A program made the position numbers and the translations under genes. Shown one piece after another: positions 20,325 through 35,435 of a stretch of 64,000 nucleotides of DNA (positions are counted from its first letter, which is position 1; each line of letters opens with the position of its first letter). Source of the DNA: Mesorhizobium sp. (GTDB taxonomy: Bacteria > Pseudomonadota > Alphaproteobacteria > Rhizobiales > Rhizobiaceae); the NCBI GenBank assembly GCA_004020545.1, contig SAQE01000023.1, forward strand, positions 20,885 through 84,884. Direction: 5' to 3'. A model generated the notes under the pieces. That model saw nothing but the letters and a program-made list of their open reading frames with translations, did not search any database and was not told where the DNA came from.

Positions 20325-23300
20325 TTACGGCTTGAAGTTCTGGATGTTTGCGCCTGCCGGGTCCTGCAGCACCCGCCTCGGCTGGCGCTGCGGAACCAGC
20401 TGCTGCAGGATGTTCGGATTGAGCAACAGGTTCGGATTGATCTCCAGGCCCGGCCGTCTGCGGATCGGGAAGCAATCCGGATACCGTCCGGTCGTCCCGA
20501 CCGGGCAGCGCCGCCTGATGATCGGCTGGCAAATGCCATCGATCATCTGCGAGCCCGGCGCGCATTCGGCGTCGACTCTGCGGCAGGCGCCGTCGATCAC
20601 TTCCGTCCCGCGCGGACACACACAGGCGCCGCGCTTGTTGAGGACCTGGCCGCGGATGGAGCACGCCTGCGGCTTCTTGACCGGCGCGCAGGCTTTGCCC
20701 CGCAGCTCCGTCCCCTTCGGGCAGACGCAATCGCCATCGGCATTGCGGACCTGGCCGCGGATCCGGCATTGGCTGGGCGGCTGCCTGTCGGGCACGCAGG
20801 CCCTGGCGACCCGATCGAGGTGCGTGCCCTTGGGGCAGACGCAGCCGTCCGCTGTCGGCACGGCGCCGCGGATCGTGCATTTCGGCGGAACGACCTCGCA
20901 GACGCCGTTCACCAGTTCGCCACGCCGGCACACACAATTGCCGTCCTGGTCGCGGTACTGGCCAGGGCGCAGCGTGCACTGCGGCTCTTCCGGCCGCTCG
21001 CTTGCCACGCACCTGCCGTTCGCAAGCTCTGTGCCGCGCGGGCAGACGCAGCGCCCATCCGCTGTCCGGATCTGGCCCTTGAGCAGGACGCAGCGTTTCG
21101 GCTCCTTCGGCTCAGGCAGGATGATGACGCCGCCGCCGGAGCACTGGCCGTTGCGGAAGGTGGTGCCTTCCGGGCAGGCACAACGGCCGGCCGAGTTGAG
21201 CACCATGCCGTTCGAGCACTGGTTCTTCACCTCTTGGCTGATGGTGAAGGGGTGGCAGGCATAGGCCTTGCCACGATCTCCCTGGGCGTTGGTCGGGGCG
21301 CGCGACAGCACGTCGCCGCCCTGCACCGGTGTGTTCGGCGACAGGACGCCGACGCAATTCTGTCCGCTGACCGTGCCCTGCAGGTTGGCGAGCCGCCCAT
21401 CGTTGGGGAGGACCACGGTGACATGATGCGTGCGGCTTTCGCCGGCGCCCAGCACGAGGTTGGCGATGCAGGACGCCGGCAGCGTCGCCGGCTCCGGCGA
21501 ACAGCCGAAGGGCGGGTCGATCGAGGTGATCTGGACGCCTTCCAAGCGGCCCAGACCGTCGATGCCAATCGCATCGCCGATGCGGACCGGGCCGGAGAAG
21601 GCGTTCGGCCCGTCATTCGTGATGGAGATCTCGAACGAGCAGGGCGCGCCCGCCCGGCACTCGGCATCGCCGGTCTTCTCGACGCGGATGATCGAGGCGC
21701 CGCCGCCCTTGGCGCAGGCCTGGCCGATCGGATAGACGATGTCGTCTCCCGGCGCCGGCCCATAGGAGCCGCGCGCGCAGTTCTCGAACGCGCCGTTGGC
21801 GCTCACCGTCACGTCGAAGTGCCGGCTCTCTCCGGGCGTCATCACGGCGCCGGGAATCTGGCACGACAGCGTGTTGGCAGGCACCGGCCCGCAGCTCCAG
21901 TCCGCGCCGTCGGGGGTCACGGTCTGGATGGCAACCGGCGCGCCGCCCGAAACAAGCGTGGCGGCATCGCTGACCCGCACCGGACCGGTGGGAGCAGCCG
22001 TGCCGGCGTTGCTGACAGTGATGCGGCAGGAAACCACCGCGGCACCGGCGAGCGAACCATCGCACACCTTGGTGATGCGCAAGCCGGGCTGGCCGCCATT
22101 CGGATGGCGGATGCGTTCGGTCGCGCAGGACTTGTTGTTGGCGAGGTCGACCTCGCCGGAAATGGCCTTCACCTCGGCGCAGTTCTCCACCCTGTCCGGC
22201 CGGTAGTTTGCCGGCATGACAGCCTTGACGACGATCGGCGTCGATGCGCCCGGAGGCAGCGAGATGCCGGCATTGTCGCAGCGGAATTGGCCGAGGCCGT
22301 TCGGGCCGCAGGTCCAGGGCGGGCTCGGTCCGAAGGTCGAGGAGGTCGGCGCGCCGCCAGGATAGGTGTCGACCACCGTCAGCGGCCCGTTATAGGTGCT
22401 GGTGCCGTTGTTGATGATGTCGATCACGAAGGTGCAGATGCCGTCCGGCGTGCAGACCGGGACGCGGGCGCGCTTCTTCAGGATCAGGTCGACCTTCTTC
22501 TCGACAGGAGGCTGGCACCGCGGGTCGCGATCGCCACGGCGGCAGATCGGGATCGAGGCGCAGGCGCGGTCGTTCTGCTGGCTGCCGAACAGCGGCTTGC
22601 CGCTGGCGTGGTAGTCATAGGTGGCGCAGTTGCGCAGCACGCTGCCCTGCCAGCCTGCGGCCGGCTTGAAGCCGAGCTTGAGGTTGACGGAGGCGCCGGG
22701 GTTGAGCGTCGTCACCGGGTGGGTGCAGGTCATCGGCGGCGCTCCGGGCACGCAGATCCAGGGCGGGTTCGGTCCTGAGGAAAGAACCGAGCCGGCCGGC
22801 AGCGTTACTTCATCGAGGACGATCGTGCCGTTGTAGGGCGCGTCGCCGACATTGGTGACGGTGATGGTGAAGTCGCAGCCGCCTGCCATCGTGCAACGCG
22901 GCACCTCGGCCCACTTCTCGACCTTGAGGTCGGGCTGCTCGGGCGGGCACCTGATGTCACGCGGAATGACGATGTCGATCGTCTGCGTGCAGCAAAGTCC
23001 CCAGCCTTCCTTCGGCCCGGCATAGGTCTCGATGCCGGTGACGACGAGATGGATGGCCTCGCCGGGCGAGGCGCCGATGATCTTCCAGTCCAGCAGGCCG
23101 CCGCCGGCAGGCACCTGCTGGGTATCGGGAACGATGGCAACGCCGGGCGTCGTCGTCGACACCTGCACCCACTTGCCGCCCATCTCCGGGCCGACCGGCA
23201 TGTGGTAGATGAAGGCGCCGCCGCCAGGCACGCAGTCGACCGTGCCGCGCTCGACCTTGAAGCACTCCTTGCCGGGAGGCGGAGGCGGCGGGTTGCATTT

Positions 23301-24044
23301 GGTCAGGTCGATCTTGATCGAGGTCTTGACGCCGGTGAGGAAATCGCCGTCGTCGGGTTTATCCGGATCCTGCGAGGGAATGGTCGTTGCAGGCCCGCCG
23401 CGCAGCGAGACCTTGATCTCTCCCTGGTTGTCGACCGTCGCCGGCACGGGAAAGGTCGCATGGTCTATCTTGGCCGTGATCCGGAAAGTGATGATGCGTT
23501 CGTTCGCGGCACCGGCGCCGTCGAGGTTGGAAGCGCTGATGCGGAAGTTGGAAACGCTGGCCGCATCGTTCGGACCGGCCGATGAGCTGATCGAAGCAGC
23601 GGGCAGCGGTCCGCCGGAGGCGCTGGTGCCGTCGCCGGCGACATCGACGCCGACGATCTGCAAGCCATGCGGAAGCTGGTCCTTGAAGTCGAGCCTTGTC
23701 GCCTTCAGCAGGGCCGCCACGCTTGGCCGGTCGAAGTCCTGCGGGTCGCCGTGGATGCCGAAACTCAGGACATATTCGACGGTATCGCAGCTTCGCTGAC
23801 CGCCCTTCTTGGTGAAGAAGGGTATGATCCGGCCGAGTTCGGAATTGATGCCGCGCGGTTGATTGGCGGCCTGACTGGACGGTGCGGTATTCTGGGCGAG
23901 CGCCAGCGATGCCGGCATCATGGCGACCGCGATACCGGCCGCCATCAGCCAGCGCGCGCCGCGCCTGGCGTATGACAGGGGTTTCATGATCGTCTCCATG
24001 ATGGTTTTGCGCGAGGCGAAGCGGGAAAGGGCGAGATCGCTCAT
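20325..24044 (-). CDS. Large secreted DUF11-like protein with Cys-rich C-terminal repeats
   Basis: About 1239 aa. A long basic N-terminus precedes a signal segment ([20 protein letters not shown]). The middle holds several Ig-like DUF11/conserved-repeat modules, each with paired Cys and the [36 protein letters not shown] and [12 protein letters not shown] signatures. The last 300 residues carry about six tandem units of roughly 35-40 aa with the pattern C-x-RGQ-x-ADG-x-CVCPKGT-x-C, plus two partial ones. The start at 24044 overlaps the upstream stop as ATGA with GGAGGGACAG before it; an ATG at 23987 is an alternative. Function unknown; surface adhesion or envelope binding is a guess. Confidence 0.8.
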
Positions 24045-26035
24045 CTGTCCCTCCTCGGCGCTTCGCAGTCGACGGCCGGCGTCCTGAGCGGCAGCGTCAT
24101 CTTGCAGCAAGGGTAGTAGCCACCCTTGTCCCGGTCGGACTTCCGGTAGAAGCAGAGCCCGACATTGACGGTGTCGCCCGGATTATGGCCGGTGATGTCG
24201 ATCGTGTAGGGCTTGCCCGGAGCATGCGACATGGGTGAGGTCACCCCGACGCCGGGTGTTTTGGACAGAGCCTTGATCGAATCGCCGCCGAAGCCGGCGT
24301 GGTCATGGAGATAGAGGTCCGCCTGCAGGCCGCGGGGCGTGCAGAAATACTGAACGTCCTCGACATCGAGGCAGGGAGGCAAATTGCCGGGCGGTGGGAA
24401 GTCGGGCGGATAGAAGGGAGGCAGGAAGCCGCCGGGGATTTCCTCATAATAGCCGGCGCGGCCTTCGCACGGACGCCAGACCCTGACGTCGCCGACATGG
24501 CCTTGAACGTCCGGGGCCTCGAAATAGCCGTCGAAGTCGACGAACCATGAGCCGAAGGGCGGCACATTAGCCGGCTTGACCAGCGCGCTCGGCGTGAGCT
24601 GCACACCATGCACGGCGAGCGGCCCGCCGGCGGCAAGCCGCTCGGCAAGTTCCGGATTGTCGCGCAACTTGTCGCCGGTGTTGACGACGGTGTCGGTGCA
24701 AACGCTGGTGTCCAGATTGCCTTCGGCATCGTAGCGGTATTGCAGATCGACGCCGCCGGCCGACTGGCGGTTGCCCTGCGGGAAGCCGATCGCATATTCC
24801 TGCGGCACTTCCACCCAGATCGATTCCGTCGCCGGGTCGTCCGGATCCTCGCGCCAGTAGCGGACGACCTCGCCTTTGCCGGAATCGGCGAAACGGCTGT
24901 AGTCGTAGCGGTTCTCGACGGGGCCGCGCTGCGCGAGATACATGAAGCCCTTGTTGTCGAAGGCGATATCGGTGACGGCATAGTCCTTGTCGGCCTTGAC
25001 CGTCAGCTCCCAGCGCGGATCGCCGGCGAAGCCTCCGTCACTCGCAATGCCCACCGACCAGATTTCGGCTTTCTCGCCGACGGAATAGTAGAGCCGTCCG
25101 CCATGATAGGCGACCGCCCAGACACGGCGTTCGTCCTGCGTATAACCCCAGGTTCCGGGGTCTTCGCTGTCGAAGGCCGCGGCCTGAATGTCCATCACGG
25201 CGCCGTCGTCGGCGATCGGGGCCAGCCCATGCGCCGGACGCCCGGCAACGCCATGGTCGAAGCTGTCGATCAGATTGCCGTCGGGGTCGATGCGGTGAAT
25301 CAGGCCGGTATCGAGATCCGAAGCGAAGAACTGGCGGTGGTTCGGATCGAACGCGAGATTGCCGATGCCGGGCCCGCTGTTGGTGTCGATGTCGGCGAAC
25401 TTGGAGACCGCGCCCGAAATACCGTCGATCTTCCAGATCGTGCCCGGTCCGCCGCCGTTTTCAGTGCCGAACTGACCCTCCATGAACACAGCGCCGGCGG
25501 TGCCGCGGCGCTGCCGTTCCGGCCTGCCGTCATCGTCGGCATCCGGCGTGACGATCTCGATGCCGTGCAGCGAGGTCGCCGCCGCATAGAGGTTGGGGAT
25601 GCCCGACGGCACGCCATCGCGCATGCCGTCATCATAGGTGATGCCGAACACCTCGCCGATCTGACCCGCCGTCACCTCGAAGGGCGGTGGCGTGTAGACG
25701 AGCTGGCCGGAAGCCGGCCCGCCGAGGCGCGAAACGTCGAAAATGCGCAAAGAGGCCTGCGAGGTGTCGATGAAGGTTTCATCGACCGGGTCGACGCCAG
25801 GCGGCAGGCCTCCCTTTTCGGAACCGGGAGAGTCGAAATCGGGGATGACGGTGCCGGGAAAGCCGGTCACCGCCATCGAGCCGGGATAGATGACCCGGGT
25901 TTCCTGGGCCTTCGCCGCGCCGCCGAGCCAAAGGCCGGCGGACAGCGCCAGGACAAGAACTCCGCCGGTTGTCATTATCGCGCGACGCAGACCGCCGGCG
26001 CGAGAAGCCACGAACGAGCCGCGGTCGCAAAACAT
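24041..26035 (-). CDS. Secreted protein of unknown function, beta-propeller-like
   Basis: A 664-aa protein. The signal peptide is a basic stretch plus GVLVLALSAGLWLGGAAKAQ, cleaved near residue 35. The body has repeated WKIDGISGAVSKFADI-, FDPNHRQFFASDLDTGLIHRIDPDG- and VTDIAFDNKGFMYLAQRG-like strands typical of an NHL or SMP-30-type propeller, with acidic DADDDGRPE. The final 150 residues are Pro- and Cys-rich (DFPPPGNLPPCLD, GYYPCCKM). The ATG at 26035 has GGGGGAG upstream; the frame is open earlier without support. It is coupled by ATGA to the repeat-protein gene, so the two are probably exported and act together. No known name. Confidence 0.78.
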   Translation of the reverse strand: MFCDRGSFVASRAGGLRRAIMTTGGVLVLALSAGLWLGGAAKAQETRVIYPGSMAVTGFPGTVIPDFDSPGSEKGGLPPGVDPVDETFIDTSQASLRIFDVSRLGGPASGQLVYTPPPFEVTAGQIGEVFGITYDDGMRDGVPSGIPNLYAAATSLHGIEIVTPDADDDGRPERQRRGTAGAVFMEGQFGTENGGGPGTIWKIDGISGAVSKFADIDTNSGPGIGNLAFDPNHRQFFASDLDTGLIHRIDPDGNLIDSFDHGVAGRPAHGLAPIADDGAVMDIQAAAFDSEDPGTWGYTQDERRVWAVAYHGGRLYYSVGEKAEIWSVGIASDGGFAGDPRWELTVKADKDYAVTDIAFDNKGFMYLAQRGPVENRYDYSRFADSGKGEVVRYWREDPDDPATESIWVEVPQEYAIGFPQGNRQSAGGVDLQYRYDAEGNLDTSVCTDTVVNTGDKLRDNPELAERLAAGGPLAVHGVQLTPSALVKPANVPPFGSWFVDFDGYFEAPDVQGHVGDVRVWRPCEGRAGYYEEIPGGFLPPFYPPDFPPPGNLPPCLDVEDVQYFCTPRGLQADLYLHDHAGFGGDSIKALSKTPGVGVTSPMSHAPGKPYTIDITGHNPGDTVNVGLCFYRKSDRDKGGYYPCCKMTLPLRTPAVDCEAPRRDR

Positions 26036-26407: not shown

Positions 26408-27346
26408 TCACCAGATCCAGTCGCCCTTGCCGAGCGCCGATACGGCTTCGACGATGCGGGTGAAGCTCGTGCGCGCCCGGCCGACCGTGTGCCGGGCCCT
26501 CAGATAGCCGTGCACCAGCCCAGGCTCCTCGAACCACCAGGCCCGGCCGCCGGCCGCGACGACGCGGTCGCGATAGGCCTCGCCGTCGGACGACAGCGGG
26601 TCGCATTCGGCGGTGATCAGCACCGTGGGCGGCAGGTAGGCGAAATCGGCATCGGCGAGCGGATACAAGGTGATGTCGCCGGTCCGGTCAACGCCGCCGG
26701 TGCGGATGTGCTTGTAGAATTCGATATCGCGCGCCGTCAGCATTGGTGCCTCGGCGTGCGTCACATAGGAGCCGCGCGAGTGGTCGCCGCCGAGGCTGGG
26801 ATAGATCAGCACTTGGCCGACCGGCTTCTTCACATGGCCGCGCGTGGCATGGGCAACGGCGGCGCAGAGATTGCCGCCGGCGCTGTCGCCGCAAAGCAGG
26901 ACCGGGCAATCGTAAGTCCGTGCCGCCCACTCGTAGGCGTCCATGACATCGTCGAAAGCTGCAGGGTGCAGATGTTCCGGCGCCAGCCGGTAGTCGACCG
27001 AGACCACCTCGTAGCCGGTGCGGGCGCAAAGCTCGGCGCAGACATCGTCATGGCTGTCCAGCCCGCCAAGGATGAAACCGCCACCGTGGACATAGAGCAC
27101 CATCGCGGCCTTGTCCGGCGCCGCGTTGCGATAGATGCGGATCGGGATGCTGTCGGGCGTGGCGATGGTGGTCGTTTCCGCCGTCACGCCTTGCGGATAG
27201 CCGGCAAAGAACTCACGGCACATCCGGTCGTAGATCGCGCGCTGATCGGCGATCGTGAAGTCGATCGTGTCCGGCGGATAATAGGAATTGGTCTTCTCGA
27301 TGAAGGCCCAGGTCTCGGCGTCGATGAGTTTTTTGTAGTCGGTCAT
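26408..27346 (-). CDS. Alpha/beta hydrolase, hormone-sensitive-lipase type
   Basis: A 312-aa esterase-like protein. The oxyanion motif HGGGFILGG is followed by DYRLAPEHLHPAAFDD, the nucleophile elbow GDSAGGN (Ser about residue 159) and late Asp/His segments ITAECDPLSSDG and LVHGYLRARH. The start at 27346 fits the family N-terminus but lacks a clear ribosome site; the open frame upstream runs into a repeat and is discounted. It lies downstream of the carnitine genes on the same strand, separated by a repeat element, so it may be part of that transcription unit. Substrate unknown. Confidence 0.85.
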   Translation of the reverse strand: MTDYKKLIDAETWAFIEKTNSYYPPDTIDFTIADQRAIYDRMCREFFAGYPQGVTAETTTIATPDSIPIRIYRNAAPDKAAMVLYVHGGGFILGGLDSHDDVCAELCARTGYEVVSVDYRLAPEHLHPAAFDDVMDAYEWAARTYDCPVLLCGDSAGGNLCAAVAHATRGHVKKPVGQVLIYPSLGGDHSRGSYVTHAEAPMLTARDIEFYKHIRTGGVDRTGDITLYPLADADFAYLPPTVLITAECDPLSSDGEAYRDRVVAAGGRAWWFEEPGLVHGYLRARHTVGRARTSFTRIVEAVSALGKGDWIW

Positions 27347-27563: not shown

Positions 27564-28346
27564 CTATCTGCCCTTCCACACCGGGTCGCGCTTCTCGGCG
27601 AACGCCCGGAACCCCTCCAGATTGTCCTCCGAGCCGTAGAGGATATCAACCGTCGGCAACTGCCTGAGCGTCACCTTGTTCATCGCGTCCTGGAAGGTCA
27701 GCGCTTCGGCCACCCGCGCCGTTTCCTTGATTGCGGCGAAGACCAGCGGCGGGCCGCTGGCCAAGAGCCGCGCGATCTCCCAGACGCGGTCCTCGAGCTT
27801 TTCCTTGGGCAGCACCTCGTTGACCAGGCCCCAACGATGCGCTTCCGCCACATCCATCCAGCGACCGGTGAACAGAAGGTCCATGGCGACGTGATAAGGA
27901 ATGCGCTTCGGCAGCTTGATCGTCGCGGCGTCTGCAAGCGTGCCGGCGCGGATTTCGGGCAGCGCGAAGGAGGAATGGTCCGACGCGTAGATCAAGTCGC
28001 AGGACAGCGCCAGCTCGAAGCCGCCGCCCACCGCCATGCCGTTGACGCAGGCGATCACCGGCTTGTTCAAATCGCGCAATTCCTGCAGCCCGGCAAACCC
28101 GCCGACGCCATAGTCGCCGTCGACCGCGTCGCCGGCGGCTGCCGCCTTTAGGTCCCAGCCGGCGCTGAAGAACTTGTCGCCGGCCGTCTTGACGATGGCG
28201 ACACGCAAGCCGGGATCGTCGCGGAACGCCTTGAAGGTCTCGCCCATCAGCCGCGACGTCTTCAAGTCGATGGCGTTGGCCTTCGGCCGATCGAGCGTGA
28301 CTTCGAGAACGGTGCCTTCGCGGCGGGTGGTGATGACGTCAGCCAT
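27564..28346 (-). CDS. caiD: Enoyl-CoA hydratase family protein, carnitinyl-CoA dehydratase-like
   Basis: A 260-aa crotonase-fold enzyme. Marks: LDRPKANAIDLKTSRLMG, the oxyanion segments FSAGWDLKAA and NGMAVGGGFELALSCD, and LPEIRAGTLADAATIKLPKRI with the acidic residue used in carnitinyl-CoA dehydratases. It would interconvert crotonobetainyl-CoA and carnitinyl-CoA. The ATG at 28346 has GGAG 9 bases upstream; its first codons overlap the end of the CoA ligase gene by 8 bp. It is the downstream end of the carnitine operon. Confidence 0.85.
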   Translation of the reverse strand: MADVITTRREGTVLEVTLDRPKANAIDLKTSRLMGETFKAFRDDPGLRVAIVKTAGDKFFSAGWDLKAAAAGDAVDGDYGVGGFAGLQELRDLNKPVIACVNGMAVGGGFELALSCDLIYASDHSSFALPEIRAGTLADAATIKLPKRIPYHVAMDLLFTGRWMDVAEAHRWGLVNEVLPKEKLEDRVWEIARLLASGPPLVFAAIKETARVAEALTFQDAMNKVTLRQLPTVDILYGSEDNLEGFRAFAEKRDPVWKGR

Positions 28347-30423
28347 TCTTCTTTTCTCCAAGCACAAGCAGGGCATCCGCGATCCAGGCGCCCTTGCCTT
28401 CGGCGCAGACGATCAGCGGGTTGATGTCGAGCTCTTCGATCTCGACTTCATTCTTCTGCACGAAGTCGGCAATGCCGGCGATGGCGTCGATGGCGGCCGA
28501 GACGTCGGCCTTGGGCCGGCCGCGGTAGCCTTCGAGCAGCGGATAGAGCCGCAATCCACGCAATGCCGCCTCGATGTCGTCGCGCGTCGCCGGCAGCATG
28601 AGCGTTACGCTGTCGCGCAACAGCTCGACCAGCACGCCGCCGGTGCCGAGCGTCATCACCGCGCCGAACATCGGGTCACGGGTGAAGCCGACGATCAGCT
28701 CGGCGACGCCGTCGCGCACCATGCGCTCGGCATAGAGGCCGGTGCCGAGCGGCAACAGGTCATGCGCGGCATTGCTGACGGATTCGGCATCCTTGAGGTT
28801 CAGCCGCACGGCGCCGACTTCCGACTTGTGGGTCACGCCGAGCGCTTTCAGCGCCACCGGGAAGCCGAGCGCCATCGACGAGATCACCGCCTCGACCGCG
28901 TTGGAGGCGCGCTCGCCCTTCGGCACCGGCAGGCCGGCCCCGATCAGACGCGCCTTGGCCTCGGCCTCGTCGGGCGTGATATGATCTCCGTCCGTCGCAC
29001 CGGCGGCAGACGTGTCGACCGGCTGCGCCTGCGGCTCGCGCCAGGCCCAGCCGATGAAGGCGGCGGCTTGAGCGGCGTCCATGGCTTCCGAAATGCCGAA
29101 CAACGGCACCATGCCGCGCGCCATCAGCCCGGCGGTGTATTCCTCCGGCAGGTTTTCCGGCAGCGAGGAGACGATGGCGCCCTGCGCCCTGTTGGTCTTC
29201 AGCGCCGCCTCGAAGGCGCGCAGCGTCGCCCACCAGTCGGTGTCCGAGCAGCGGTCAGGCCGCGGGAAATCGAGCACCAGCATGTTGAGATCGAAGCCGC
29301 CCGACACCATGGCGGTGAAGGTGGCCGTCATCGCCGGCTCGTTGTTCCAGATGAAGGTGTGGTAGTCGAGCGGATTGGCGACCGCCACCAGCGGGCCGAG
29401 CGTCGATTTGACATGGGCGCGATGCTCGGCCGTCAGCGTTGGGAAATGCACCCAGCGGCCTTCGGCGCTGTCGGCCATCACGGAGGCCTCGCCGCCGGAA
29501 CAGCTCATCGACGACAGCTTGTAGCCGGGCAATGGCCCGGTAATGTGCAAGAGCTTCAGCGCCTCGATGAAAGCCGGAATGGAATCGACGCGCGCGATGC
29601 CGAGCCGCTTCAGGAAGGCGCCTGAGGCGGTGTCAGAGCCGGCGAGCGAGGCCGTGTGCGACACCGTCGCCTGTCTCGCCTGTTCCGAGCGGCCGACCTT
29701 CATGGCGATGATCGGCTTTTTCAACTCGCGGGCTCTCGCAGCCAGCCTCTCGAAGCCGGCTACCGAGTCGAAAGCCTCGATATGCAGGCCGAGCGACGTG
29801 ACGCGTTCGTCCTCGATCAGACCGAGCGCCATTTCGGAGAGGCCGGTCTGCGCCTGGTTACCGGCCGTCATCAGGAAGGCCATCGGCAGGCCGCGCTTCT
29901 GCATCGTCATATTGATGGCGATGTTGGAGGACTGGGTGATGATGGCGACGCCCTTGCCGCCCTCCGGCAACCGGATCCCGCCGTGCTGGTCGGGCCACAA
30001 CAGCGCGCCGTCGGCATAGTTGATCAGGCCATAGCAGTTGGGGCCGATGATCGGCATCTGGCCAGCGGCGGCGACGAGCTCGGCCTGCAGCCGCTCGCCG
30101 TCCTCGTCATAGGCCTCGGTCTCTAGGAAGCCGGCGGCAAAGCAGACGGCGCCGCCGGCGCCGCGTTCAGCCAGCGCCTTGACCACCTCGATGGTGAGAT
30201 GCCGGTTGACGCCGACAAAGGCGGCGTCCGGCGCACCCGGCAGATCGGCGACGGAGCGGTAGGCCTTGCGGCCGGCGACTTCGTCCTTCGTCGGATGCAC
30301 CGGCCAGATTTCGCCGGCAAAGCCCATCTTGATCGACTGCGCCACGACGGCGGCGGCCTGCGCCCCGCCGAACACGGCGATCGATTTCGGGCGCAGGAGA
30401 CGTTCGAGTTTATGCATGGTCAT
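28339..30423 (-). CDS. NDP-forming acyl-CoA synthetase (acetate-CoA ligase family)
   Basis: About 694 aa in the fused alpha-beta layout: CoA-binding Rossmann domain (LLRPKSIAVFGGAQ, IIGPNCYGLINYADG), succinyl-CoA-ligase-like domain with the phospho-histidine segment SHTASLAGSDTASGAF, and a C-terminal ATP-grasp domain (FPVALKALGVTHKSEVGAVRLNL, LAMPA-type end). It forms acyl-CoA from a carboxylate with ADP release, not by the AMP route of CaiC. In this operon the probable substrate is gamma-butyrobetaine or carnitine (inference). Starts at 30423 and 30417 are both possible. Confidence 0.88.
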   Translation of the reverse strand: MTMHKLERLLRPKSIAVFGGAQAAAVVAQSIKMGFAGEIWPVHPTKDEVAGRKAYRSVADLPGAPDAAFVGVNRHLTIEVVKALAERGAGGAVCFAAGFLETEAYDEDGERLQAELVAAAGQMPIIGPNCYGLINYADGALLWPDQHGGIRLPEGGKGVAIITQSSNIAINMTMQKRGLPMAFLMTAGNQAQTGLSEMALGLIEDERVTSLGLHIEAFDSVAGFERLAARARELKKPIIAMKVGRSEQARQATVSHTASLAGSDTASGAFLKRLGIARVDSIPAFIEALKLLHITGPLPGYKLSSMSCSGGEASVMADSAEGRWVHFPTLTAEHRAHVKSTLGPLVAVANPLDYHTFIWNNEPAMTATFTAMVSGGFDLNMLVLDFPRPDRCSDTDWWATLRAFEAALKTNRAQGAIVSSLPENLPEEYTAGLMARGMVPLFGISEAMDAAQAAAFIGWAWREPQAQPVDTSAAGATDGDHITPDEAEAKARLIGAGLPVPKGERASNAVEAVISSMALGFPVALKALGVTHKSEVGAVRLNLKDAESVSNAAHDLLPLGTGLYAERMVRDGVAELIVGFTRDPMFGAVMTLGTGGVLVELLRDSVTLMLPATRDDIEAALRGLRLYPLLEGYRGRPKADVSAAIDAIAGIADFVQKNEVEIEELDINPLIVCAEGKGAWIADALLVLGEKKNG

Positions 30424-30433
30424 CTTTTCGTTT

Positions 30434-30481
30434 GAGCACGATCTTTCCCGGAACCGGACCCGGTCTGGGGCGATCATGCTC
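30434..30481. repeat. Short rhizobial intergenic palindromic unit
   Basis: GAGCACGATC and GATCATGCTC form imperfect 10-bp arms (one mismatch) around an inner TTCCCGGAACCGG / CCCGGTCTGGGG segment. Related pieces occur at 34349-34392 and near 43245-43260. It lies between the CoA ligase and acyl-CoA dehydrogenase genes and reaches the latter's stop. Confidence 0.6.
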
Positions 30482-31644
30482 TAAGCCCCGAACGGACGCA
30501 GCAACGCCCGCGAAATAATATGTCGCTGAATCTCCGAAGTGCCTTCCCAGATGCGCTCGACGCGCGCGTCGCGCCAGATGCGCTCCAGCGGCAGGTCGTC
30601 CATCAACCCCATGCCGCCATGGATCTGGATGGCTTCGTCGGCAACGAAGGCGAGCATCTCGGTGGCCTTCAGCTTGGCCATCGCCATGTCCTGGTCGGTG
30701 ACGGTGCCCTGATCGTATTTCCAGCCAGCTTCGAACACCATCAAATCGGCCGCCTTCAGCTCCGTCGCCATATCGGCGAGCTTGAAGGAGACGCCCTGGA
30801 ACTTGCCGATCTGCTGGCCGAACTGCTGTCGCTGCGCTGCATATTCGATGGCGTGCGAAAGCGCCCGCTCGGCACGGCCGAGGCAGGTCGCGCCGACCTG
30901 GAGCCGTGTCGCGCCGAGCCACGAGTTCGCCACCTCGAAACCCTTGTGCACTTCGCCGAGCACCTGGGAAGCCGGCAGCCTGCAGTCGTCGAATTCGAGG
31001 ATCGAGTTGGTGTAGCCGCGATGTGAGACATTGCGATACCCGTCGCGCACCGAGAAACCCTTGGTGCCCTTGTCGACGAAGAAGGCGGTGATCTTCTTGC
31101 GCTTGCCGTGCGGCGAATCCTCTTCGCCCGAAGCCATGAAGACGATTGCAAAATCGGCGATGTCGGCATGGCTGATGAAATGCTTGGTGCCGTTGAGCAC
31201 CCAGTCCGAGCCGTCCTGAACGGCGGTCGCCTTCATGCCGCGCAGGTCTGAGCCGGCGCCGGGCTCGGTCATCGCCAGGCAGTCCCACTTCTCGCCGCGG
31301 ATGCACGGGAAGAGATACTTTTCCCGCTGCTCCGGCGTGCCGGCGAGCAGGATGTTGGACGGGCGCGCCACGCAGGTCCAATGCAGCGCGTAATTGGCGC
31401 GGCCTAGCTCCTTCTCGTAGAGCAGCCAGCTCACCGTATCGAGACCCGCGCCGCCGACATCGGCCGGCATGTTGGCCGCGTAGAGTCCGGCTTCGATCGC
31501 CTTGGCCTTCAGCTCCTCGATCAGCTCGCGGCGCAGCACGCCGGTACGCTCGACCTCGTGTTCATGCGGGTAAAGCTCGTTCTCGACGAAGGCGCGCGTC
31601 GTCTCGACGATGAGCTTCTGTTCTTCCGAGAGACCGAAATGCAT
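30481..31644 (-). CDS. Acyl-CoA dehydrogenase (probable gamma-butyrobetainyl-CoA dehydrogenase)
   Basis: A 387-aa FAD enzyme. Signature segments: CLAMTEPGAGSDLRGMK, TKHFISHADIADFAIVF, QQFGQQIGKFQGVSFKLADM and the C-terminal QIHGGMGLMDDLPLERIWRD-type motif with RIWEGTSEIQRHIISR. Length is typical. In the carnitine operon it probably oxidises gamma-butyrobetainyl-CoA to crotonobetainyl-CoA. The substrate is inferred from neighbours. It ends 3 bp before the next open frame's promoter-proximal sequence and follows lcdH by 4 bp. Confidence 0.88.
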   Translation of the reverse strand: MHFGLSEEQKLIVETTRAFVENELYPHEHEVERTGVLRRELIEELKAKAIEAGLYAANMPADVGGAGLDTVSWLLYEKELGRANYALHWTCVARPSNILLAGTPEQREKYLFPCIRGEKWDCLAMTEPGAGSDLRGMKATAVQDGSDWVLNGTKHFISHADIADFAIVFMASGEEDSPHGKRKKITAFFVDKGTKGFSVRDGYRNVSHRGYTNSILEFDDCRLPASQVLGEVHKGFEVANSWLGATRLQVGATCLGRAERALSHAIEYAAQRQQFGQQIGKFQGVSFKLADMATELKAADLMVFEAGWKYDQGTVTDQDMAMAKLKATEMLAFVADEAIQIHGGMGLMDDLPLERIWRDARVERIWEGTSEIQRHIISRALLRPFGA

Positions 31645-31648
31645 CGCC

Positions 31649-32761
31649 TCAGCCCTTCTTCTCGCTCTTCTTCGCCTTTGCGGGCTTGTCAGCTTTTGCC
31701 GGCTTCGCGGCCTTCTTCGCCGGCTTGGCCGCCTTAGCCTTTGCGGGGACCGGCTTCTTCGCTGCCAGCTTGGCGAGCCGGTTCGTATACTCCTTGTGCA
31801 AGGCGCCGGCGCCCCAGCCCTTGCCCTTGTTCTGCTTCGACAGCGCTTCCATGATCGCGACCAGATTGTCGTCGCGGATCTTTTCCAGCTCGCGGATCGA
31901 CAGCCCGTTCGCCTGCTCGTCCGACTGCGTGGCGATCAGGTCGACCAGCTCGTCGTTGAACTCCGGCACGTCCATCAGCTTGGTCCACGGCCACTTCAGG
32001 CAGGGCCCGAACTGCGCCATGAAGTGGCGCATGCCGGCTTCGCCGCCGGCGACGCGATAGACCTGGAACATGCCCATCTGCGCCCAGCGCAAGCCGAAGG
32101 AATAGCGCATGATGTCGTCGAGTTCCTCGACGGTGCAGATGCCATCTTTGACCAGCCACAACGCCTCGCGCCAGGCGGCCTCCAGCAGACGATCGCCGAC
32201 GAAGGCCTCGATCTCCTTGCGCACCACCACCGGCTTCATGCCGATCGAGGCGTAGAGCTCCTTGGCGACCTCGATCGCCTCCGGGAAGGTCTGCTGGCCG
32301 CCGACGATCTCGACCAGCGGCAAGAGATAAACCGGGTTGAACGGATGACCGACGACCAGCCGCTCCGGATGCTTCTTCATCGCCACCTGCATGTCGGTCG
32401 GCTTGATGCCGGAGGTCGAGGACCCGACGATTGCGTTGGCCGGCGCGTGCAGGTCGATCTCGGCAAGCACCCTGTGCTTGAGGTCGAGCCGCTCCGGCAC
32501 GCTTTCCTGGATGAAGTCGGCGTCGGCCACCGCTTCGGCGATGGTCTTGGCGAAGGTGAGCTTGCCTTCCTTCGGCAGGCCGCCGGGCAGCATCTGCTTG
32601 TAGGCGCGCCGTGCGCCCTTCATCACCTCGCCGACCTTGCGGGAGGCCTCGGGATCAGGATCGAAGATCGACACATCGATGCCGTTCAAGAGCAGGCGGG
32701 CCACCCAGCCGGCGCCGATGACGCCGCCGCCGATGGTGGCCGCCTTGTTGATGATGCTCAT
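31649..32761 (-). CDS. lcdH: L-carnitine dehydrogenase (3-hydroxyacyl-CoA dehydrogenase family)
   Basis: A 370-aa NAD-dependent enzyme oxidising carnitine to 3-dehydrocarnitine. The Rossmann motif AATIGGGVIGAGWVARLL starts at residue about 7. SSTSGIKPTDMQ and GHPFNPVYLLPLVEIVGG carry the catalytic Ser/His/Asn region of the family. No thioesterase domain is fused, unlike some homologues. The last 35 residues are almost only Lys, Ala and Pro (AKAAKPAKKAAKPAKADK), a histone-H1-like tail. The ATG at 32761 has GGAG at 7 nt; a longer frame upstream is an antisense artefact of the HD gene. Confidence 0.88.
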   Translation of the reverse strand: MSIINKAATIGGGVIGAGWVARLLLNGIDVSIFDPDPEASRKVGEVMKGARRAYKQMLPGGLPKEGKLTFAKTIAEAVADADFIQESVPERLDLKHRVLAEIDLHAPANAIVGSSTSGIKPTDMQVAMKKHPERLVVGHPFNPVYLLPLVEIVGGQQTFPEAIEVAKELYASIGMKPVVVRKEIEAFVGDRLLEAAWREALWLVKDGICTVEELDDIMRYSFGLRWAQMGMFQVYRVAGGEAGMRHFMAQFGPCLKWPWTKLMDVPEFNDELVDLIATQSDEQANGLSIRELEKIRDDNLVAIMEALSKQNKGKGWGAGALHKEYTNRLAKLAAKKPVPAKAKAAKPAKKAAKPAKADKPAKAKKSEKKG

Positions 32762-32763
32762 GG

Positions 32764-33387
32764 TCAGGCTCCGGTTCTTGTCTTGGCTGTTTCGGGATCG
32801 GTAAGCGGCACACGCTCGCCGGCGCGGATCACCGCGGGGTCGTAGGCCTTGCGCGCGAAGACTTCGAGCACGAAGGGCCGGAAGAACTCGATCGGCAGCG
32901 TGTCGTAGTCGGGGTCGAAGCTCGACTGGTCCCAGCGCTCGCAGAACTGGTCGCAATCGTCGAAATAAAGGTGGCCGGCGAAGCGGTCGCGGGCATGCCG
33001 GTTGCCGCCGAGATGGTGGGCGTAATAGAGGCGCTGGAAGTCGCCGTGCTTTTCCACCACCCAGGTGCATTGCTCGCGCACGAAAGGCTTCAGGATCGTG
33101 GCGGCATATTCGTCGTGATTGTAAGGCGCGTAGATGTCGCCAATGTCGTGCAGCAGCGCCGAGACGATCCAGTCTATGTCGGCGCCGTCGCGCCACGCGC
33201 GTGTCGCCGCCTGCAGCGAATGGCCGAGCCGGGTGATCTTGTAGCCGGATAAACCCTGATCGAGCTGCACCAGGGCGTCAAGCAGCCGGTCGCCGGTCTT
33301 GGCGGCATAGTCGATCTCATGGGCGGTCAGGAATTCATAGTCTTCCTTGTCGCCGTCCTTCATCGCGGTGAATTTGACGGTAGCCAT
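32764..33387 (-). CDS. HD-domain protein of unknown role in the carnitine operon
   Basis: A 207-aa HD-superfamily protein. Metal-binding residues are visible as H in RLGHSLQAATRA, the HD pair in SALLHDIGDIYAP, and later histidines in VEKHGDFQRLYYAHHLGG. The layout recalls the PhnZ/TmpB mixed-valent di-iron oxygenases at least as much as phosphohydrolases. It lies between the BKACE cleavage enzyme and carnitine dehydrogenase genes (GGGAG before the ATG, 2 bp before lcdH). It occupies the place where other carnitine loci have a thioesterase. I cannot assign a reaction. Confidence 0.75.
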   Translation of the reverse strand: MATVKFTAMKDGDKEDYEFLTAHEIDYAAKTGDRLLDALVQLDQGLSGYKITRLGHSLQAATRAWRDGADIDWIVSALLHDIGDIYAPYNHDEYAATILKPFVREQCTWVVEKHGDFQRLYYAHHLGGNRHARDRFAGHLYFDDCDQFCERWDQSSFDPDYDTLPIEFFRPFVLEVFARKAYDPAVIRAGERVPLTDPETAKTRTGA

Positions 33388-33401: not shown

Positions 33402-34319
33402 TTATGCCGCGATCGGCGCCCGCTTGGTGAGGTTGAGCTTCTTGCGCACTTCTTCCGGCCCAAGGATCCTGGCGCCGAGATTGGTGACGATGCTGGCGGC
33501 GCGCTCGACGAGCTGCGCGTTGGTCGCCAGCACGCCCTTGTCCAGCCAGAGATTGTCTTCCAGGCCGACGCGGACATTGCCGCCCGCAAGCACCGCCGCA
33601 GCGGCATAGGCCATCTGGTTGCGGCCGATCGAGAAGGCCGACCAGTTCCAGGTCGAGGGCACGTTGTTGACCATCGCCATGAAGGTGTTGAGGTCGTCCG
33701 GCGCGCCCCATGGCACGCCCATGCAGAGCTGCACCAGCGCGTCCGGCTTCAGCACCTGTTCCTCGACCAGTTGCTTGGCGAACCACAGATGGCCGGTGTC
33801 GAAGGCTTCGATCTCAGGCTTGACGCCCAGCGCCGTCATCATGCCGCCCATGGCGCGCAGCATGCCGGGCGTGTTGGTCATGACATAGTCGGCCTCGGCG
33901 AAGTTCATCGTGCCGCAATCCAGCGTGCAGATCTCCGGCAGGCACTGGCGGACGTGCTCCATGCGGTTGGTCGCGCCGCCCATGTCGGTGCCTTTTTCGT
34001 TGAGCGGCAGCGGCGCCTCCGGCGAACCGAACACCATGTCGCCGCCCATGCCGGCGGTGAGGTTCAGCACCACGTCGACATTCGCCTCACGGATGCGCTC
34101 GGTCACCTCGCGGTATAGGTGCACGTCGCGCCTCGGCTTGCCGGTTTCGGGGTCGCGCACATGGCAATGGACAATTGCGGCACCCGCCTTGGCGGCCTCG
34201 ATCGCCGAATCGGCGATCTGCTTGGGCGAGCGCGGCACGTGCGGGCTGCGGTCCTGGGTGCCGCCGGAGCCCGTCACGGCACAGGTAATGAAGACCTCAC
34301 GGTTCATCGCGAGCGGCAT
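33402..34319 (-). CDS. BKACE-family beta-keto acid cleavage enzyme (dehydrocarnitine cleavage)
   Basis: A 305-aa zinc TIM-barrel protein of the 3-keto-5-aminohexanoate cleavage (DUF849) family. The metal-binding HCHVRD segment is at about residues 50-55; LNLTAGMGGD, TLDCGTMNFAEADYVMTN, FDTGHLW and RVGLEDNLWLDKG are characteristic. Members in carnitine operons convert 3-dehydrocarnitine plus acetyl-CoA to betainyl-CoA and acetoacetate (CdhC-type). The ATG at 34319 has GGGAGG seven bases upstream. It is the first gene of the leftward carnitine operon. Confidence 0.88.
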   Translation of the reverse strand: MPLAMNREVFITCAVTGSGGTQDRSPHVPRSPKQIADSAIEAAKAGAAIVHCHVRDPETGKPRRDVHLYREVTERIREANVDVVLNLTAGMGGDMVFGSPEAPLPLNEKGTDMGGATNRMEHVRQCLPEICTLDCGTMNFAEADYVMTNTPGMLRAMGGMMTALGVKPEIEAFDTGHLWFAKQLVEEQVLKPDALVQLCMGVPWGAPDDLNTFMAMVNNVPSTWNWSAFSIGRNQMAYAAAAVLAGGNVRVGLEDNLWLDKGVLATNAQLVERAASIVTNLGARILGPEEVRKKLNLTKRAPIAA

Positions 34320-34348
34320 CGTCTTTCCTCCCAAATTCGATCAGCCAT

Positions 34349-34392
34349 GCATGTCGCCCAAACTGGGAACCGGTTTTGGGAAAACGACATGC
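34349..34392. repeat. Short rhizobial intergenic palindromic unit
   Basis: Perfect 8-bp outer arms GCATGTCG/CGACATGC enclose CCCAAA/TTTGGG and a central AACCGGTT palindrome. It sits in the divergent promoter of the carnitine operon and its AraC-type regulator. It resembles a widespread rhizobial intergenic repeat and is unlikely to be a specific operator. Confidence 0.6.
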
Positions 34393-34454
34393 ACCGAAAC
34401 TACTCCAACAATGACCGACTTGCCGGAAACTGTTTTGCGTTTTACGAAGCCATC

Positions 34455-35435
34455 ATGACTAAAAGCGAAAAGCCGACGATCTTTCGTGCCGAGCATGAAA
34501 CACTCAAGGTGACGTTCCTGGTGTTCTCGGGCGCGTCGATCATGTGCGTCGCCTCGGCCGTCGATCCGCTGCGCGCCGCAAACCGCATTTCCGGCGAGAC
34601 GCTGTTCGATTTCAAGCTGGTCTCGGTCACCGGAGAGGCGCCGGTGACAACATGCGGCCTGCCGGTTGCCGTCAGCGGGCGCTTCGATGCCGCCGAGCCG
34701 ACCGACATGCTGGTTGTCGTCGCCGGCTTCGGCACGCAGAACTACGCCACCGCCGCGCTGCTTGCCGGTCTGCGTAGGGCAGCTCGCGCGGCCCGCGCCT
34801 GCGGTGGTGTCGAGGCGGGCACCTGGCTGGTCGCGCGCGCCGGGCTGCTCGAGGGCCGCAGCGCCACCACGCATTGGGAAGACATGGAGGATTTCTCCGC
34901 CGCCTTTCCCGGCGTCGACGTGCGACCTGACCGCTATGTCATCGACGGGCCGGTCTTCACCTCCGGCGGCGCCTCGCCGACCTTCGACCTGATGCTGCAT
35001 CTGGTCCGCACCAGACTCGGCATGGCCGCCGCTCTCGATGTGGCGAGCGTCTTCATCTACGACCAGGCGCGCGCCGCGACCGACGCGCAGCCGCTGGTCT
35101 CGCTCGGCCGGCTCGACGGCTACGATCCGCGGCTGGCGCAGGCGATCCGGCTGATGGAAGCGCATGTCGACCAGCCGTTGACCATCGATGCGGTGGCCAA
35201 GCGCGCCGGCGTGACGGCGCGAACGCTGGAGAGCATTTTTCGCAAGTCGATCGGCGAGACGCCGGGCGCCTATTATCTGCGGCTCCGCCTCAGCGCCGCC
35301 CGCCGCTTGGTGGTCGACACGCGCATCGCCATGGCTGACATTGCCGGGCGCACAGGGTTTTCGTCCGCAGCCGCGTTTTCCCGGGCGTTTTCCAGGGCTT
35401 TTGGCGAGGCGCCGGTCAGGCTGCGGCGCGGCTGA
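34455..35435 (+). CDS. GlxA/AraC family regulator of carnitine metabolism (CdhR-like)
   Basis: A 326-aa activator: an N-terminal class-I glutamine-amidotransferase-like (DJ-1/PfpI) domain (VTFLVFSGASIMCVASAVDPLRAAN, AGTWLVARAGLLEGRSATTHWE) without obvious catalytic use, then a C-terminal AraC HTH (QPLTIDAVAKRAGVTARTLE, TRIAMADIAGRTGFSSAAAFSRAF). This architecture is that of GbdR/CdhR, which control carnitine and betaine genes. It is divergent from the carnitine operon. The ATG at 34455 is chosen on family length; the frame is open upstream but runs into the repeat. Its end overlaps the convergent HAD gene by 20 bp. Confidence 0.88.
   Translation: MTKSEKPTIFRAEHETLKVTFLVFSGASIMCVASAVDPLRAANRISGETLFDFKLVSVTGEAPVTTCGLPVAVSGRFDAAEPTDMLVVVAGFGTQNYATAALLAGLRRAARAARACGGVEAGTWLVARAGLLEGRSATTHWEDMEDFSAAFPGVDVRPDRYVIDGPVFTSGGASPTFDLMLHLVRTRLGMAAALDVASVFIYDQARAATDAQPLVSLGRLDGYDPRLAQAIRLMEAHVDQPLTIDAVAKRAGVTARTLESIFRKSIGETPGAYYLRLRLSAARRLVVDTRIAMADIAGRTGFSSAAAFSRAFSRAFGEAPVRLRRG

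Follow-up and report, generated by a model that had tools for sequence, protein, structure and literature searches.

A putative HD-domain diiron oxygenase encoded in a carnitine operon of Mesorhizobium

We analysed a 64,000-nucleotide stretch of Mesorhizobium sp. DNA (contig SAQE01000023.1, termed the window), in which a protein of 207 amino acids with an HD domain is encoded within a carnitine operon (32764..33387, minus strand). We consider it probable, by a modest degree, that this HD protein belongs to the non-haem diiron oxygenases of the HD-domain class and would cleave a hydroxylated trimethylammonium compound. The computed support consists of the fold class, the conservation of the metal ligands, an association of the wider family with hydroxylases and the conserved residence in carnitine operons. 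That the protein holds iron, acts as an oxygenase and has a trimethylammonium substrate is what we infer by analogy with known enzymes of the class.

Family, predicted fold and metal site of the HD protein

The available excerpt of a 2020 review names three HD-domain oxygenases (PMC8177086): myo-inositol oxygenase (MIOX; PDB 2huo, 2ibn), the 2-amino-1-hydroxyethylphosphonate oxygenase PhnZ (PDB 4mln, 4n71, 4n6w) and the (R)-1-hydroxy-2-trimethylaminoethylphosphonate oxygenase TmpB (PDB 6npa). To these, an excerpt from a 2023 review adds the fused PhoF and a variant of PhnZ (PMC10574752). A search with the single sequence of the HD protein found PhnZ as its best match in the PDB (E 8.7e-5). Moreover, a profile built from 40 diverse relatives matched TmpB (3.7e-14) and PhnZ (4e-14), followed by Cas10 (0.097), and a second profile from 48 closer relatives matched PhnZ (5.7e-10), TmpB (1.1e-7) and Cas10 (0.0059). 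The Phn-HD model is matched at E ≤0.01 by all 40 diverse members, 15 of which also match the general HDIG model. The fold model of the HD protein is confident and all-helical, and structure comparison gave scores of 16.3 for PhnZ, 15.4 for TmpB, 10.6 and 9.6 for MIOX and 7.5 for the next chain. All ten Foldseek matches with E values up to 0.001 are PhnZ or TmpB.

Eight residues, H56, H80, D81, H91, H114, F117, Q118 and D153, are invariant in all 162 aligned relatives and likewise in the 97 of a reduced set. Six of them (H56, H80, D81, H91, H114 and D153) align with H40, H64, D65, H86, H109 and D166 of TmpB, whose numbering here is derived from the alignment. The metal motif of HD-domain oxygenases is H...HD...H...H...D, according to the 2020 review excerpt (PMC8177086), and the HD protein has it, with all six ligands kept in 162/162 relatives. 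The resemblance to PhnZ and TmpB suggested by the sequence-only reading is therefore borne out by sequence profiles, by the confident fold model and its comparison, and by the ligand pattern. In the histidine pattern on which that suggestion had rested, the later HH pair (H124/H125) does not belong to the conserved site. Profile matches, modelled fold and putative ligands favour membership of the HD-domain diiron oxygenases (PhnZ, TmpB, MIOX) over that of the HD phosphohydrolases, and the leaning of the sequence-only reading towards an oxygenase agrees with this.

Two observations speak for the opposite assignment, to a metal-dependent hydrolase: most known HD proteins are phosphohydrolases, as the same review excerpt states (PMC8177086), and the general HD family PF01966 is the sole curated cut-off that the HD protein reaches, at 24.8 bits just above its value of 22. 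Against it, no hydrolase chain among the matches listed equals PhnZ, TmpB or MIOX by sequence or by fold. Beyond the general HD model, the cut-off of a characterised phosphohydrolase family was never reached.

A genuine phosphonate oxygenase of the PhnZ/TmpB type, which would cleave a C-P bond, for instance in hydroxylated trimethylaminoethylphosphonate, and would sit in the carnitine operon by chance, agrees with PhnZ and TmpB being the nearest solved relatives. Moreover, the HD gene of one other locus (L148) comes immediately after a TauD-family gene whose product passes the TmpA cut-off (423 against 400 bits). The scores against the three phosphonate HD models, however, are all far below cut-off (Phn-HD, TIGR03276, 31.7 against 214.6; PhnZ1, NF052439, 29.1 against 300; TmpB, NF049941, 21.9 against 300). 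In addition, the basic TmpB residues H68, K113 and R163 (alignment numbering) face D84 (151/162 relatives), Q118 (162/162) and E150 (24/24 members from carnitine operons). We take the PhnZ and TmpB counterparts of these three positions to be phosphonate-binding residues. The YxxE motif, which the 2020 review excerpt describes as the substrate-binding lid of PhnZ and TmpB (PMC8177086), is mostly LxxY in the HD family and occurs in 2 of the 162 relatives; L46 and Y49 are present in all 24 carnitine-operon members. Since both the lid and the three basic residues are replaced, the HD protein is no orthologue of PhnZ or TmpB, and we regard a phosphonate substrate as distinctly unlikely.

Further differences set the HD protein apart from each known enzyme. 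Its loop between the HD pair and the next histidine is shorter than in TmpB. PhnZ has HDLGH where the HD protein has HDIGD, and an arginine three residues before the last ligand, at the place of E150. MIOX shares 16% identity with it, its chains are longer (241-258 residues, of which 135-140 align), and the MIOX family PF05153 scores 17.5 bits against a gathering cut-off of 25. Two arginines are well kept in the set of 97: R53 (88/97), which faces methionine in TmpB and glutamine in PhnZ, and R133 (95/97), which faces valine in TmpB and arginine in PhnZ. By its sequence, the HD protein seems to represent a new branch within a known but rare enzyme class, distinct from those of PhnZ, TmpB and MIOX.

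This unnamed family has matches in 37 of 61 near genomes, and in 122 of 385 sampled for the class and 62 of 398 sampled for the phylum. Weak partial matches (E above 1e-6) account for 13 of those in the class, which leaves 109 strong ones, and for 3 of those in the phylum sample. The nearest named relatives are from Mesorhizobium (96-97% identity), and the matches include relatives from SAR11. The family would therefore add a large group to the HD-domain oxygenases. Public records name its members 'HD domain-containing protein', 'phosphohydrolase' or 'inositol oxygenase family protein', and an oxygenase function would correct these names. Among open PMC papers, we found no account of such an HD gene beside carnitine dehydrogenase, or of a diiron enzyme that converts carnitine to glycolate.

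Carnitine operons and the thioesterase question

The HD gene starts with an ATG at 33387 and is open throughout. With most same-genus relatives the alignment begins at residue 1, and a composition-based gene caller, which recovered the known genes of the window and was used for the neighbour counts, chose the identical start and end. The gene lies 14 bp after that for BKACE, a beta-keto acid (dehydrocarnitine) cleavage enzyme (33402..34319, minus strand; PF05853, E 1.5e-98), and 2 bp before that for LcdH, an L-carnitine 3-dehydrogenase that is lacking a C-terminal thioesterase domain (31649..32761, minus strand; NF005716, 593.7 bits, cut-off 592, positions 3-337 of the 495 of the model). A search for the thioesterase domain in this LcdH gave no match. 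The position between the genes for dehydrocarnitine cleavage and carnitine dehydrogenation, seen in the sequence-only reading, is confirmed by these family matches, and the order BKACE-HD-LcdH is kept in all 25 same-genus loci inspected.

For larger loci we counted 163 distinct HD proteins; one shorter than 150 amino acids was left out of the tree and alignment, which comprise 162, and HD genes missed by the caller (L122, L126, L151, L153, L194) were excluded from the neighbour counts. Carnitine context, defined as BKACE and LcdH both lying no more than three genes from HD, applies to 24 of the 163. A single clade (support 0.962) holds 23 of these 24, from Mesorhizobium, Hoeflea, Tabrizicola, Pseudotabrizicola and other Rhodobacteraceae, and is nested in a clade of 61 members that includes 16 coupled to PhyH genes (support 0.856). 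The remaining one (L081) is found outside, next to SAR11. This points to two or more entries of the HD gene into carnitine operons and to a larger association that has lasted across genera. A neighbourhood shared with lcdH and BKACE genes is thus conserved in several genera, as the sequence-only reading would have it, and neither this result nor the family matches contradict that reading.

The hydrolase alternative has a specific form in this context, a thioesterase for betainyl-CoA or carnitinyl-CoA, next to a phosphohydrolase that clears a side product. It draws on the missing thioesterase domain of the window LcdH, and an excerpt of PMC12482172 states that the carnitine dehydrogenase of S. 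meliloti also converts betainyl-CoA to glycine betaine. However, an LcdH with a fused C-terminal thioesterase is found together with the HD gene in five of the 24 carnitine-context loci (L195, L196, L199, L203 and L225; 4HBT_2 confirmed by Pfam in L196). Furthermore, BKACE and a short LcdH are directly adjacent, with no gene in the place of HD, in 7/7 same-genus operons without it, and each of the nine same-genus genomes searched (five with HD, four without) encodes, at another site, a separate thioesterase homologue of putative function. Four HD-free operons of other genera in the family have an LcdH of 496-511 amino acids, in which a fused thioesterase was confirmed by a match only in G531. 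Within the HD protein we found no hot-dog thioesterase domain: at E 1 it matches no models other than those of HD and MIOX, and its fold model is all-helical. Since HD occurs with a fused thioesterase and HD-free operons have no substitute gene, HD and thioesterase vary independently, and we reject the HD protein as a thioesterase replacement. The sequence-only reading had placed it in a slot used elsewhere for a thioesterase and allowed for hydrolysis of a betaine derivative. The first is inexact: several loci have the thioesterase fused to LcdH, L148 has it as a small gene following LcdH, and a thioesterase-like gene between HD and BKACE is seen in L081 alone, where it is encoded on the other strand. 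The second is disfavoured by the same patterns, and we judge a hydrolase of either kind unlikely.

The low-complexity C-terminus of the window LcdH (31649-31760) is rich in lysine, alanine and proline, at the place where some other genera have the thioesterase domain. Loss of this domain is common to same-genus operons with and without HD.

Hydroxylase neighbours and the candidate reaction

Among the 163 HD proteins, 35 have a hydroxylase gene as tight same-strand neighbour (PhyH 19, TauD 10, Rieske 4, DIOX 2), in seven a hydroxylase gene is no more than three genes away, and 97 lack both a hydroxylase and carnitine context. Outside carnitine operons, hydroxylases make up 35 of 140 tight same-strand HD neighbours, compared to 14 of 1344 genes at least four places away. 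The four hydroxylase families were chosen with their occurrence next to HD already known, and related loci were counted separately, so this is an association and not an independent test. PhyH and HD genes overlap by 1 or 4 bases in 13 of the 19 PhyH cases. None of the 24 carnitine-context loci has an adjacent hydroxylase. Oxygenase adjacency is patchy on the midpoint-rooted tree: the Fitch count for the 35 positives is 24 changes, compared to a mean of 32.1 and a minimum of 27 after shuffling. As missed genes inflate this patchiness, we claim no number of independent origins.

In other genomes, some HD genes have choline, betaine or carnitine genes nearby. The TauD partners in L154 and L235 score best to TmpA as well, at 347.5 and 346.8 bits, both below the cut-off; in that of L235, TauD was the sole domain matched. 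In L125, a divergent TauD neighbour has the N-domain of gamma-butyrobetaine hydroxylase. The Rieske partner in L231 is most like the glycine-betaine monooxygenase GbcA (153.7 bits, cut-off 670), and on plasmid pF045_1 the HD gene is near genes for a choline-binding protein, choline dehydrogenase and aldehyde dehydrogenase. Other HD neighbours are OpuAC (L148), an MTTB-family gene (L116), soxBDA (L090) and a GbdR-like regulator (L093). In L148, OpuAC, HD and TauD form a set that diverges from one of CdhR, BKACE, LcdH and thioesterase. These neighbours lend support to the tie with trimethylammonium compounds that the sequence-only reading drew. The family would connect diiron oxygenation with the turnover of carnitine, choline and betaine, and the PhyH-HD, TauD-HD and Rieske-HD pairs are defined, testable enzyme pairs.

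Not all recurrent neighbours are informative. A conserved Rhodobacteraceae neighbour of about 1040 amino acids is valyl-tRNA-synthetase-like and thus merely shared chromosome context. The SAR11 neighbours, which had seemed metabolic, turned out to be dnaB-, purF- and glutathione-type genes, and they argue against a simple operon rule.

The known reactions of HD-domain oxygenases fit the scheme R-CH(OH)-X + O2 -> R-COOH + HO-X, in which X is the phosphonate (PhnZ, TmpB) or the diol carbon (MIOX). By analogy, two irons would be held by the H56/H80/D81/H91/H114/D153 site, one of which would bind the alkoxide of the substrate R-CH(OH)-X. O2 on the second iron would take the carbinol hydrogen, and cleavage of the C-X bond would yield R-COOH and HO-X. 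In the carnitine operon, R would most likely be Me3N+-CH2-, with glycine betaine as the product; in other loci, the adjacent hydroxylase could supply the hydroxyl group of the substrate. One PhyH and one TmpA-like query found no match at E 1e-5 in the window's own genome, a search confined to these two families. PhyH- and TmpA-like genes are present in 5 and 7 of 11 same-genus genomes, with no tie to the presence of HD. As carnitine is already hydroxylated and no such partner was found in the own genome, carnitine or a close relative is the simplest candidate substrate, with glycine betaine as the presumed product.

The boldest candidate is a one-step cleavage, L-carnitine + O2 -> glycine betaine + glycolate, which is balanced. 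We offer it as a rather unlikely proposal, reasoned from the spatial analogy of L-carnitine, the (R) form, to the TmpB substrate with CH2COO- replacing the phosphonate. If true, it would be an O2-dependent shortcut past the dehydrogenase, BKACE and thioesterase, and, to our knowledge, the first case of an HD-domain oxygenase that cuts a C-C bond in a quaternary amine. The TauD-HD pairs elsewhere would then make and subsequently cut the same kind of hydroxylated betaine.

The HD protein might instead act outside the main pathway, in the salvage of trimethylaminoacetone or of some other dead end to which the unstable dehydrocarnitine gives rise. Its gene does lie between those for the enzymes that make and use dehydrocarnitine, and the fact that part of the same-genus operons are without it (31 of 37 same-genus genomes have a match; seven operons are HD-free) suggests an accessory role. 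According to an excerpt of PMC12482172, cells grown on carnitine contain trimethylaminoacetone, and conversion of this compound to glycine betaine by a Pseudomonas AK1 extract is cited there. Trimethylaminoacetone, however, is devoid of the carbinol hydrogen present in known substrates of HD-domain oxygenases, and we hold such a damage-control role to be very improbable.

Remaining genes of the operon and further loci

The window operon is a tight minus-strand run that continues after BKACE, HD and LcdH with genes for an acyl-CoA dehydrogenase (30481..31644; PF00441, PF02770, PF02771), an acyl-CoA ligase of the NDP-forming type (28339..30477; PF13607, PF13549, PF13380) and an enoyl-CoA hydratase (27564..28376, or 27564-28346 according to the gene caller). 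The best NCBIfam match of the latter is crotonobetainyl-CoA hydratase, at 311.8 bits below the cut-off of 500. The last gene of the run, called by the gene caller, encodes an alpha/beta hydrolase of the hormone-sensitive-lipase type (26408..27346; PF07859). Divergent from the run is the gene for a CdhR/GbdR-like AraC-type regulator with a DJ-1/PfpI domain (34347..35435, plus strand; PF12833, PF01965; best NCBIfam GbdR, 213 bits, below the cut-off of 480). An NDP-forming acyl-CoA synthetase, as predicted at 28339-30477, is an unusual choice for the activation of a betaine acid compared to CaiC-type ligases.

We take cdhC and cdhA of Pseudomonas aeruginosa to be BKACE and LcdH. The caiX-cdhCAB-hocS operon resembles that of the window in its carnitine genes and divergent AraC-type regulator, and no HD gene is named for it in the excerpt of PMC5806209, whereas the window has one between BKACE and LcdH. 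The window operon also adds the acyl-CoA dehydrogenase, CoA ligase and hydratase genes.

Elsewhere in the window (20325-25975), two large genes lie side by side; one contains DUF7929 and DUF11, and the second matches no Pfam family. In other genomes, two HD-family genes are found in tandem in L094, L097 and L103, in the first two beside Rieske-type genes and near PhyH-cluster genes. A second Mesorhizobium HD paralogue, about 70-75% identical (L118, L119, L200, L202, L209), is near an amidohydrolase and a Rieske-ferredoxin-like gene; these neighbours are Pfam-confirmed in L118 and assigned by gene clustering or size in the other four. In Pelagibacteraceae (L129, L131, L240, L242 and others), the HD gene is repeatedly flanked by purF-like and glutamate-cysteine-ligase-like genes, whose families were checked in L129, L131 and L242. 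In L123 (5254-10789), the HD gene is in a run with AlkZ-like, urate-oxidase-N, polysaccharide-deacetylase-type and allantoicase genes. Finally, distant HD members in L100, L133, L146, L152 and L158 are directly beside genes that group with a class II aldolase/adducin gene (by Pfam in L100, by record annotation in L158) and perhaps represent another substrate class.
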